From Prochlorococcus marinus CUG1417 (GTDB lineage Bacteria > Cyanobacteriota > Cyanobacteriia > PCC-6307 > Cyanobiaceae), in contig NZ_JAAORN010000001.1 of assembly GCF_017695975.1 (NCBI RefSeq), positions 682,001 to 746,000 on the forward strand: DNA of 64,000 nt, given 5' to 3'. The notes below the pieces were generated by a model. The model was not told where the DNA came from and did not search any database. It was given only the letters and a program-made list of their open reading frames with translations. The translations under genes and the position numbers were made by a program. Every line of letters starts with the position of its first letter. Positions within the stretch are counted from its first letter, which is position 1. Positions 12,928-63,282 of this stretch are shown piece after piece.

Positions 12928-13839
12928 ATGAATGTAAGTATTGTTATACCGACTTACAATAGATTGCCCATACTAGAGAAATGTCTCTTTGCGCTTGAGA
13001 ATCAAAAATTAGATACAAGTATCAGTAACTATGAGGTAATTGTAGTTGATGATGGATCAACTGATGGGACAACCTCATGGATATATAAAAACAAAGCTAA
13101 TCTTCCACACGTTATTCTATTTCAACAAGAACATGGAGGGCCTGCACTTGGAAGAAATCTTGGAGTAATTAAATCAAAATATGAAATTATTATATTCATT
13201 GATAGTGATCTTATTGTTTTAGACAATTTTATAAATTGCCACGTAGAAAAATTACTTGCCTCTTGGAGAAAGAATGATAAAAAATGTTTTACCTATGGCT
13301 CAGTAGTCAATACATCTAATTTTCTAAATCCTCAGAGTGAAAAACATAAAATAATGGACACTTCTTTTGCATATTTTGCTACTGGGAATGTAGCAATATC
13401 AAAAGAATTGATTTTAAGTGTGGGATTATTTGATACTTCTTTTAGTCTTTACGGTTGGGAGGATTTAGAACTTGGAGAAAGATTAAAAAAAATGGGGACA
13501 AAATTAATTAAATGCCCAAATGCAGTAGGTTTTCATTGGCATCCACCATTTAGTTGCGAACAAATAGATGCATTAGTAGCTCAAGAAAAAGAGAGAGCAA
13601 AAATGGCTTTGGTGTTTTATAAGAAACATCCAAATTTAAGGGTTAGATTTATGATTCAATTAACGCCTCTCCATAAACTACTTTGGCAAATTCTTTGCTT
13701 GGGAGGAATAATCAGTGTTGATAGAATCCTTCCTTTATTAAGATTCCTAGTAAATATAAGAAAAAATAGACTTGCACTTGAGATACTTAGGATCCCCCTA
13801 AATATGATTTACATTAAACAGTTAACAAAATCAAGATAA
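12928..13839 (+). CDS. Glycosyltransferase family 2 protein
   Basis: A GT-A fold transferase of 303 residues. It opens VSIVIPTYNRLPILEKCL, has the nucleotide-binding DDGSTDGT at 41-48, the segment GGPALGRNLG, a metal-binding DSD in IIFIDSDLIV and a catalytic-base region GWEDLELGERLKK. It transfers a sugar from an activated donor to an unknown acceptor, perhaps cell-surface polysaccharide. The C-terminus has a hydrophobic, amphipathic region that may associate with the membrane. No other polysaccharide genes are adjacent. It precedes the rpsB leader. Confidence 0.9.
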   Translation: MNVSIVIPTYNRLPILEKCLFALENQKLDTSISNYEVIVVDDGSTDGTTSWIYKNKANLPHVILFQQEHGGPALGRNLGVIKSKYEIIIFIDSDLIVLDNFINCHVEKLLASWRKNDKKCFTYGSVVNTSNFLNPQSEKHKIMDTSFAYFATGNVAISKELILSVGLFDTSFSLYGWEDLELGERLKKMGTKLIKCPNAVGFHWHPPFSCEQIDALVAQEKERAKMALVFYKKHPNLRVRFMIQLTPLHKLLWQILCLGGIISVDRILPLLRFLVNIRKNRLALEILRIPLNMIYIKQLTKSR

Positions 13840-13892
13840 AAAACTTTTAGAAATACACATCACTTGCTAGAATCGTTGAAATTAAATCCACA

Positions 13893-13955
13893 CATCTGAC
13901 AGTTTCGGGTGATTTTTAATATTAAATCCCCGTCAGATGGAGGCTAACCCGAAAC
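13893..13955 (+). promoter_or_regulatory. rpsB leader element with two interleaved perfect stems (possible pseudoknot)
   Basis: Two exact inverted repeats are interleaved just upstream of rpsB. CATCTGAC at 13893-13900 pairs with GTCAGATG at 13932-13939 (8 bp). GTTTCGGGT at 13902-13910 pairs with ACCCGAAAC at 13947-13955 (9 bp). The order a-b-a'-b' means either an H-type pseudoknot or two mutually exclusive hairpins. GGAGG at 13939-13943 lies within or beside the structure. The last stem ends 13 bases before the rpsB ATG, within the region a ribosome would cover. Translational control, possibly by S2 itself, is inferred. Confidence 0.7.
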
Positions 13956-13968
13956 CCTTTTCTAAATT

Positions 13969-14673
13969 ATGGCTGTTGTATCACTATCAGAAATGATGGA
14001 AGCTGGTGCTCATTTTGGGCATCAAACTAGACGTTGGAATCCCAAGATGTCTAAGTATATATATTGCGCGAGAAATGGAGTCCATATTATTGATCTTGTA
14101 AAAACAGCATTGTGTATGAACAATGCATATAAATGGACGAGAAACGCTGCAAAAAGCGGTAAACGTTTCCTCTTTGTAGGTACAAAAAAACAAGCATCAG
14201 ATGTAGTGGCTCAGGAAGCTACACGCTGTGGAGCTGCATATGTAAATCAAAGATGGCTTGGAGGGATGTTGACTAATTGGACAACAATGAAAGCTAGGAT
14301 AGAAAGATTAAAGGATTTAGAAAGAATGGAAAGTAGTGGTTCAATAGCAATGAGGCCTAAAAAAGAAGCTGCAGTTTTAAGGAGAGAACTTGAAAGATTA
14401 CAAAAATACTTAGGTGGACTTAAGGGTATGAGAAGATTACCAGATGTTGTTGTATTGGTCGATCAGAGAAGAGAATCTAATGCGGTATTAGAAGCTAGAA
14501 AATTAGATATCTCATTAGTCTCAATGTTGGATACAAATTGCGATCCTGATTTGTGTGAAGTTCCAATTCCTTGTAACGATGATGCCGTTAGATCTGTGCA
14601 ACTTATTTTGGGAAGACTTGCAGATGCAATAAATGAAGGTAGAAAAGGCTCTAATGCCGAAAGAAAAAATTAA
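13969..14673 (+). CDS. rpsB: 30S ribosomal protein S2
   Basis: A 234-residue S2 protein with signatures [19 protein letters not shown] near the start and [16 protein letters not shown] in the middle. S2 joins the small subunit late and sits at the head-body junction, close to where mRNA leaves. The gene is followed after 44 bases by tsf, the usual rpsB-tsf operon. The leader carries a strong structured element. Length is close to the family norm and the ATG start is unambiguous. Confidence 0.98.
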
Positions 14674-14717: not shown

Positions 14718-15374
14718 ATGGGAAACATTACAGCAAAACTTGTAAAAGATCTTAGAGATAAAACTGGCGCAGGAATGATGGACTGCAAAAAAGCACTTAA
14801 CGAAACTGAAGGAAATCTAGATAAAGCTTTGGAATGGTTAAGAAAGAAAGGCATAGCTAGTGCTGAAAAGAAATCGGGAAGAGTAGCGGCCGAAGGTTCA
14901 ATTGGCAGTTATATTCATACTGGATCAAGAGTCGGAGTTTTACTAGAGTTGAATTGTGAAACTGATTTCGTTGCTAGAGGTGATATATTCCAATCTCTGT
15001 TGAAGGATGTCTCAATGCAAGTAGCAGCATGCCCAAATGTTGAGTATGTATCAATTGATGAAATACCAGAAGATGTTGTGGAAAAAGAAAAGCAGATTGA
15101 AATGGGTAGGGATGATTTATCTGGAAAACCAGAACAAATTAAAGAAAAAATAGTTGAAGGGAGAATAGCAAAAAGACTTAATGAGCTTGTATTGCTTTCA
15201 CAACCCTACATTAAAGATAGTTCTTTAACAGTTGAGGATCTTGTTAAACAAGCAGCTGCAAAAATTGGGGAAAATATCAAAGTACGACGCTTTACAAGAT
15301 ATACATTAGGTGAAGGTATCGAAAAAAATCAGATGGATTTTGCTGAAGAAGTTGCATCAATGCAAACAAACTAG
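14718..15374 (+). CDS. tsf: Translation elongation factor Ts
   Basis: A 218-residue EF-Ts of the short cyanobacterial/plastid type. It has the N-terminal UBA-like domain ([20 protein letters not shown]) and the central [17 protein letters not shown] motif that contacts EF-Tu. It exchanges GDP for GTP on EF-Tu. It is co-transcribed with rpsB; no terminator is visible between them. The next gene starts within a few bases of the stop, so the operon may continue into the hypothetical gene and recG. Confidence 0.97.
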
Positions 15375-62164: not shown

Positions 62165-62205
62165 AGAGATATTTAAGGTGAATATTTTCTGCTAGTTTAA
62201 TATAT

Positions 62206-63282
62206 TTGAATAAGAAGAACTTAGTGAAAAATGATGCGCTATTAATTGATGAACTGCATCATAAATACGATAAGCGAAAATATTCAAGTTGGATATTAAA
62301 CGATATTAACCTTAAAGTTGAAAATGGCGAATTATTGGGTTTGCTTGGTCCTTCTGGCTGCGGAAAAACTACTCTTTTAAGATTAATCGCAGGGTTCGAA
62401 TATCCCTCTAAAGGAAGGATTTCTTTAAATGATAAGGAAATTTCTAGTAGAAAAAAAATCCTTAGCCCTGAAAAAAGAAATATTGGTATGGTTTTTCAAG
62501 ATTACGCACTTTTCCCTCACTTGACTGTTATGGAAAATGTGATGTTTGGTTTGAAAAACAAAAAAGATAGATCTAGAGTTGACTATTTATTAAATGTTGT
62601 TGGTCTTGATAGTTTTATTGGAAGGTACCCACATGAATTGTCTGGAGGCCAAAAACAAAGACTTGCAATTGCGAGGGCTCTTGCTCCAGGAACAAATTTT
62701 ATTTTGTTAGATGAACCCTTCTGTAGTCTTGATATGCATGTAAAACTTAAATTGAGAAGTGAACTCCCAAATATTCTAAAAGGTTGTAATACAAGTGGAT
62801 TGATGGTTACTCATGATCCTGAAGAAGCTATGTCAATTTGCGATAAAGTGGCAGTTATGAATGAGGGTAAAATTCATCAAATTGATACGCCTATCAATCT
62901 CCTTAATAATCCCAAGACTGCATTTGTTAGTAGTTTTATTTTGGGAAATAATATTATTAATCTCAAAAAGATTGGTAATTCATATAAGTCTTGTTTAGGT
63001 GAAATAAATAGTTCAGGGATTTTACAAAATGCAAATATTAAAAATATGTCAATTTCGCCTAAATTTATTTCAATTAAAAGATCAGAATCTGGAAATGCGA
63101 AAGTAATATCTAAAGAATTTTTTGGAGAATTTCTTATATATAAAGTAACTATTAATGGAAACATATTGCGGGTTAGAACTGATATTAATAATCTCCTAAA
63201 TAATGGTGATAAATGTTCTCTTTCTATAAATAAAAATAGTTATTATTTTTTATATCCTGGAGCACATAAGGTATATATATAA
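62206..63282 (+). CDS. futC: ABC transporter ATP-binding protein, iron(III) type
   Basis: A 358-residue importer ATPase. It shows Walker A GPSGCGKTT, the Q-loop segment RNIGMVFQDYALFPHLTVMENV typical of the FbpC/PotA branch, signature LSGGQKQR, Walker B LLDEPFCSLD and switch His in VTHDPEEA. The C-terminal 110 residues form a TOBE-like regulatory domain. Proximity to ferritin and a Fur-like site favours iron(III) import, but polyamine or sulfate transport cannot be excluded from this gene alone. The start is TTG at 62206. No permease gene is adjacent. Confidence 0.8.
   Translation: MNKKNLVKNDALLIDELHHKYDKRKYSSWILNDINLKVENGELLGLLGPSGCGKTTLLRLIAGFEYPSKGRISLNDKEISSRKKILSPEKRNIGMVFQDYALFPHLTVMENVMFGLKNKKDRSRVDYLLNVVGLDSFIGRYPHELSGGQKQRLAIARALAPGTNFILLDEPFCSLDMHVKLKLRSELPNILKGCNTSGLMVTHDPEEAMSICDKVAVMNEGKIHQIDTPINLLNNPKTAFVSSFILGNNIINLKKIGNSYKSCLGEINSSGILQNANIKNMSISPKFISIKRSESGNAKVISKEFFGEFLIYKVTINGNILRVRTDINNLLNNGDKCSLSINKNSYYFLYPGAHKVYI

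Follow-up and report, generated by a model that had tools for sequence, protein, structure and literature searches.

The DNA that we analyzed (hereafter, the window) is a 64,000-nt stretch of the Prochlorococcus marinus CUG1417 genome. On its (+) strand, it carries a gene for ribosomal protein S2 (234 aa) at 13969–14673, with the ATG at 13969, followed by a gene for elongation factor Ts at 14718–15374; we take these genes to be rpsB and tsf, names that we read off their own sequences. Among the best 80 of the 582 matches to the rpsB protein, 78 were Prochlorococcus records and 2 were Synechococcaceae records. Two interleaved stems lie upstream of rpsB on the same strand. Stem one (P1) pairs CATCTGAC at 13893–13900 with its exact complement GTCAGATG at 13932–13939 (8 bp), and stem two, the pseudoknot, pairs GTTTCGGGT at 13902–13910 with ACCCGAAAC at 13947–13955 (9 bp, also exact). 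The preliminary description had reported these as perfect inverted repeats in the order a-b-a′-b′ ending 13 bases before the rpsB ATG, and this arrangement is correct throughout.

Further elements on the (+) strand complete the fold. Only 1 nt separates P1 from the first pseudoknot strand, i.e., all that is present here of a possible P2, and a P3 hairpin, whose length varies elsewhere, is predicted by folding at 13911–13928 (GATTT at 13911–13915 with AAATC at 13924–13928). It is followed by CCC at 13929–13931, which can pair with GGG at 13907–13909 in an MFE fold that lacks the pseudoknot. Loop 3 (GAGGCTA, 13940–13946) is a conserved motif that reads GGAGG (13939–13943) when G13939 is added. 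Finally, an alternative hairpin at 13893–13911 (CATCTGA at 13893–13899 with TCGGGTG at 13905–13911) would exclude both P1 and the pseudoknot.

A promoter-like site at 13846–13873 on the (+) strand consists of TTTAGA, a 16-nt spacer and TAGAAT (13868–13873), with TG before the −10 hexamer and 9 of 12 consensus matches. Judging by this site, transcription would be expected to start near 13880, in which case the whole element would be transcribed. The site also has a conserved spacing: among the 53 leaders sampled from the same genus (see below), 49 have a −10-like hexamer that starts 24–26 nt before P1. Another promoter-like match, at 13896–13923, also scores 9 of 12, has no TG and would place the start inside the element. 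In total, 2 such sites fall within 13780–14000, against a mean of 0.8 in shuffled sequences.

Within the 129-base intergenic region (13840–13968), the interleaved pair of exact helices scored 43, a value reached by none of 3,000 dinucleotide shuffles (mean, 25.6; best, 42). The earlier claim that chance occurrence is improbable thus holds, albeit by a single point, and a best pair with both helices of at least 8 bp appeared in 8 of the 3,000 shuffles. Across the window, 3 of 1,486 tiles scored 43, two of them being the rpsB element itself and the third lying in AT-rich DNA near 62179. This third tile (62179–62307) matches the score of the rpsB element with the AT-rich interleaved helices TGAATATTTTC and GTTTAATAT, probably as a result of composition. 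Folding energies, computed with a program that is blind to the pseudoknot, depended on the segment: 13880–13985 gave a z-score of −1.07 (32 of 200 shuffles as good), and 13881–13968 gave −2.51 (4 of 200). The case against chance from this single sequence is therefore good, though not overwhelming, and it is conservation that decides.

In all, 161 rpsB leaders were compared: 53 from the same genus, 29 from other genera of the family (which we take to be Cyanobiaceae in GTDB) and 79 from other families of the class. The genus sample was drawn from 163 matching genomes (30 loci, 20 mostly lower-scoring rows, and genomes G000, G106 and G082), and two further rpsB-matching genomes, G350 of the class and G322 of the family, stood outside the sample. 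The fold was placed with a search for a GGGT core, an ACCC-like core and a P1-like helix, with the P1 anchor chosen by pairing, which favors the fold; in the final counts, the anchors of three leaders (L010, L100 and L109) were set by hand. The a-b-a′-b′ fold could be placed upstream of rpsB in 161 of 161 leaders, a figure that is partly built in because the search demands the cores and picks P1 by pairing. As an independent marker, CACA at the start of P1 together with TGGA at its end occurred in 129 of the 161 (51 genus, 26 family and 52 other leaders). In one cyanobacterium, a tRNA match (Rfam, 59.9 bits) lies on the minus strand within the 350 bases upstream of rpsB (L141:67–140).

The preliminary description had proposed compensatory base changes across many leaders as a test, and these proved to be strong in stem one and modest in stem two. 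In a MAFFT alignment of 41 leaders, picked for short P3 and for spread, all 7 P1 pairs were kept in 41 of 41 leaders, and 6 of the 7 had changed on both sides. The covariation score of P1 plus P3 was 0.636, against 0.300 in shuffles (reached by 0 of 500) and no more than 0.286 in slid alignments. By comparison, the number of P1 and P3 pairs with a double change (n = 10) is a weak measure, since 57 of 500 shuffles attained it. The P3 columns were 76.5% paired, with changes on both sides in 4 of 5 pairs. Among the 98 distinct leaders, P1 was paired in 94 at position 1, in 98 at positions 2–5, in 97 at positions 6 and 7 and in 83 at position 8.

For the pseudoknot, we counted on anchors rather than on MAFFT columns; the MAFFT counts were set aside, as the ACCC columns are shifted by a difference in loop 3, which measures 7 nt in genus and family leaders but mostly 8 nt elsewhere. 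The GGGT/ACCC core is invariant except for one G-U pair, and since the search imposes this core, its invariance carries no information. The flanking pairs are formed in 97, 91, 86, 77 and 54 of the 98 distinct leaders at the first five positions. Against shuffled partners, pairing reached 90.5% vs 84.0% (0 of 300 shuffles as high), and 52 double-change cells were found vs 20 in shuffles (0 of 300), with a slide of +3 giving 37, not far below; at least as many pairs with double changes arose in 10 of 300 shuffles. These shuffle and slide figures refer to the automatic anchors, before the three leaders were set by hand, as do the double changes by family, the spacing of the −10-like hexamer, the P1-constrained folds and the folds of the 5′ piece. 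Clean double changes occurred in four families: at position 1 in f19 (C-G to T-A), at position 2 in f18 (T-A to A-T) and at position 3 in f38 and f44 (both T-A to A-T). Double changes at flank positions 4 and 5 were excluded, many of them not lying beside a kept pair. Within Prochlorococcus and the family, we found no covariation in the pseudoknot, whose sequence hardly varies there, and stem two is therefore backed in this group by conservation rather than covariation. Taken together, the two stems form a genuine, conserved RNA element that is very likely regulatory.

Next to the stems, the P1 end carries GGAGG in 51 of the 53 genus leaders, 26 of the 29 family leaders and 55 of the 79 others. 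It had been suggested at first that GGAGG could be hidden or exposed by the fold. A role as the ribosome-binding site that the fold hides is rejected, because 25 bases separate GGAGG from the ATG and because the 55 class leaders that keep it carry a separate Shine-Dalgarno (SD) sequence near the ATG. Nor is GGAGG needed for the fold: it is absent after P1 in L115, L116, L120, L121, L124 and L130 of f18, where loop 3 is shorter, and in L117, L123 and L125 of f19, and all of these leaders keep P1 and the pseudoknot.

The leaders were divided sharply by the presence of an SD, defined as GGAG, GAGG or AGGA after the pseudoknot core and before the ATG. All 79 leaders of other families have one, starting between 3 nt inside the pseudoknot end and 4 nt after it in 79 of 79, whereas none of the 82 genus and family leaders contained any of these four-mers. 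The length of the pseudoknot (G-U allowed) follows the same division, i.e., 9–10 bp in 82 of 82 genus and family leaders vs 4–10 bp in the class, where only 12 of 79 reach 9 or 10 bp. Loss of the SD is general in Prochlorococcus, since an SD four-mer precedes only 3 of the 50 window ORFs of at least 150 aa (2.1 expected by shuffling) and since SDs are reported not to exceed chance frequency in Prochlorococcus MED4 and MIT9313 (PMC6778093). The coincidence of an SD-less leader with a long pseudoknot is seemingly not in print, and it amounts to one evolutionary contrast, family vs rest, which is not repeated.

We consider it probable that the cyanobacterial rpsB leader, an instance of the motif of Meyer et al. 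and kin of E. coli t44 (see below), is an mRNA operator in the 5′ UTR of rpsB, or of rpsB-tsf, in which S2 stabilizes the pseudoknot and blocks the 30S subunit. The fold, its covariation, its position and its kinship with the E. coli leader are observed; S2 as the ligand, repression of translation and a steric block as the means are inferred. Specifically, P1 would close a loop that holds P3, and GGGU in this loop would pair with ACCC just after P1 to form the pseudoknot. When S2 is in excess of free 30S subunits, S2, perhaps together with S1, would most likely bind and stabilize this pseudoknot. As its end lies 13 nt before the ATG and no SD is available, the 30S subunit would then be unable to load on rpsB. 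In the other cyanobacteria compared, the pseudoknot adjoins or overlaps the SD, and in the genus and family the 9–10-bp pseudoknot would itself occupy the entry site. Spanning a 9-bp helix with a loop of one nucleotide is geometrically tight, so all 9 pseudoknot pairs may not form at once. In E. coli, excess S2, helped by S1, represses rpsB-tsf translation through the leader (PMC10931766). The same source places the E. coli ribosome-binding site outside the operator and calls the details unclear, and direct steric block is therefore not a proven E. coli mechanism.

Several other explanations have to be weighed against an S2-responsive operator. The pseudoknot could be constitutive, setting a fixed low or S1-dependent level of rpsB translation or protecting the mRNA without sensing S2. 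The literature that we searched yielded no S2 binding or expression data for the rpsB leader of any cyanobacterium, which leaves room for such a role, and so do reports that Prochlorococcus is thought not to rely on SDs and may use S1 (PMC5607370) and that S1 unfolds structured leaders in E. coli (PMC3858243). We nevertheless regard a constitutive element as rather unlikely, given that the kindred E. coli element responds to S2 (PMC10931766) and that conservation in all 161 leaders fits a regulator better than a fixed brake. A different proposal shifts the action from the pseudoknot to loop 3, where GGAGG would trap the 30S subunit upstream of the start, as in rpsO/S15, in place of exclusion by the pseudoknot. 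GGAGG is complementary to the anti-SD and recurs in the E. coli leader (GTGGAGGC), but its distance from the ATG and its absence from the P1 end in 24 of the 79 class leaders make a trap of this kind quite improbable. Even less can be said for a chance repeat or a transcription terminator, which we hold to be barely conceivable. The best of the 3,000 shuffles did come close to the observed score, and one terminator-like match, 13893–13911 followed by ATTTTTAATA, was found vs 0.1 in shuffles. However, the conservation of the fold with covariation across the class in effect excludes chance, the terminator-like stem is the alternative hairpin described above, and a run of four Ts within the 8 nt that follow GGGTG is present in only 4 of the 53 genus leaders, none of the 29 family leaders and 12 of the 79 others.

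A further possibility, compatible with an S2 operator, concerns the pairings that compete with the pseudoknot. When P1 is imposed on the MFE fold, the pseudoknot GGG finds a partner within the P1 loop in 82 of 82 genus and family leaders and in 52 of 79 others; in the window, this partner is the CCC at 13929–13931, and a CCC near that place is shared by 52 of the 53 genus leaders, 21 of the 29 family leaders and 5 of the 79 others. Freeing the strands costs a mean of 7.06 kcal/mol in the genus, against a mean pseudoknot duplex of −13.1 kcal/mol before any pseudoknot penalty, and the two states may therefore not be far apart. Beyond this, the leader might act as a strand-exchange switch, in which the P1 5′ strand would pair first with GGGUG, during transcription, and then with the P1 3′ strand, so that GGGU becomes available for the pseudoknot, and S2, S1 or ribosome traffic would bias the exchange. 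In agreement with such a switch, the 5′ strand carries a pyrimidine in 98 of 98 distinct leaders at each of P1 positions 3–5, despite C/T exchange with the P1 partner, compared with 6, 19 and 41 of 98 at positions 6, 7 and 8. Complete pairing of the first five P1 bases with GGGTG is possible in 93 of 98 distinct leaders (156 of 161), vs 3–8% of shuffled arms, and in 84 of 98 the predicted fold of the 5′ piece contains 4 or 5 of these pairs. On the other hand, transitions by way of G-U pairs are easy in any helix, so that strand identity may be inertia (position 6 is strand-biased as well), and the purine-rich P1 3′ strand may be kept for a protein. Moreover, the early hairpin is worth −6.5 kcal/mol in the window, much weaker than the P1 folds (−19.4), and a G at position 4 disrupts it in E. 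coli (judged by eye). The switch is therefore put forward tentatively. On this reading, the P1 5′ strand has two conserved partners and GGGU has two or three (the P1 5′ strand, ACCC and, mostly in the genus and family, CCC). Equally tentative is the extension that cyanobacterial leaders in general exchange strands and that the SD-less family has moved from an SD guard to an entry gate, with a 9–10-bp pseudoknot offsetting the lost SD.

Prochlorococcus is among the most abundant phototrophs of the ocean, and the element described here extends a published kind of ribosomal-protein leader to this genus. It also offers a concrete test case for translational repression where ribosomes do not rely on an SD. 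The element itself is known; what is added here is its SD-less form with a long pseudoknot and, possibly, a switch. The titles and passages searched contained no description of a Prochlorococcus rpsB leader by name, of its 9-bp pseudoknot, of the SD split or of the alternative pairings. An early screen of marine cyanobacteria lists the leaders of the S10, rplJ and L11 operons, and rpsB is absent from its main text (PMC1242208).

The kind of element to which the leader belongs has already been published, as the rpsB motif that Meyer et al. reported in 2009 (PMC2704228) from hosts that include Cyanobacteria. This motif has P1, P3 and a pseudoknot that joins the loop junction to the 3′ extension of P1; its P2 is short or missing, and in Cyanobacteria P2 is absent or very short. 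The motif is reported to have five pseudoknot pairs outside Firmicutes, as compared with 9 here and 4–10 in other cyanobacteria, and the main text of that paper does not contain the term "Shine-Dalgarno" and names Prochlorococcus once, as a genus in ocean data. The features found here are those of the motif, i.e., a position upstream of rpsB, a covarying P1, a pseudoknot, a P3 and a short or absent P2. RF01815, the Rfam rpsB entry, which we presume to represent the family of Meyer et al., gave no match in 13840–14000 at E-values up to 10 (cut-off, 40 bits); it matched 5 of 19 other cyanobacterial leaders at E-values up to 1, all below the cut-off (best, 28.4 bits). At gathering cut-offs, no Rfam family matched anywhere in the window, the rpsB element included. 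However, RF00127 (t44), the E. coli tff feature before rpsB, matched 13871–13949 with 27.8 bits (E = 2.6e-4 in 161 bases; cut-off, 44), and the other four matches in a permissive scan of 13840–14000 all had E-values of at least 1.8. One or the other of the two models matched 9 of the 19 other cyanobacterial leaders, and these single matches are weak because their E-values range from 0.002 to 0.96 and all fall below the cut-offs; the E. coli control reached 83.5 bits. A search for t44 across genomes of the phylum gave weak matches in 4 of 117 and none above the cut-off; the three that were compared with the rpsB locus lie on other contigs or at other places, and the fourth is in genome G278. 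This search is no test of absence, as its strict filters missed the window element too.

A covariance model of P1 and P3 (R1) was built from the 41 aligned cyanobacterial leaders. It found all 48 of the class leaders left out of the model (some of them close to a member), which marks a gap in Rfam, given that none of the window leader and the 19 others reaches the cut-off of either Rfam model. On the whole genome, R1 gave one strong match, at rpsB, followed by a match with an E-value of 2.12; thus, no convincing second copy was found. Outside the class, it matched one (L173, E = 6e-6) of the 20 rpsB leaders taken from the phylum's other classes. Among these 20 leaders (L167–L186), several (L174, L177 and L183, for example) keep, by eye and uncounted, a frame like CACACGC...GGCGGAGG that R1 does not match; leaders such as L168 and L171 look different. 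At the base of the phylum, the element may thus take on another form.

R1 also found the E. coli rpsB leader (L166:376–462, E = 2.6e-4 in 72.6 kb). The Rfam scan proposed at the outset thus revealed, below the Rfam cut-off, a kinship with E. coli, and by sequence models matching in both directions, with an E-value of 2.6e-4 each, the two leaders are homologous. Upstream of rpsB, the E. coli leader shares the order CACA, P1, GGGGTG, P1′, GTGGAGGC and AACCCC with that of the window. It differs in its P1 sequence and, by eye, in its pseudoknot, which is 5 bp long and separated from the ATG by 24 nt that include a purine-rich GAGG. Another E. coli leader, that of rpsO, forms a pseudoknot at the start of its own gene that is stabilized by a ribosomal protein, S15, and traps the 30S subunit (entrapment). 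Its likeness to the rpsB leader is one of description: the S15 mechanism is trapping of the 30S subunit, whereas the mechanism that we propose for S2 is its exclusion.
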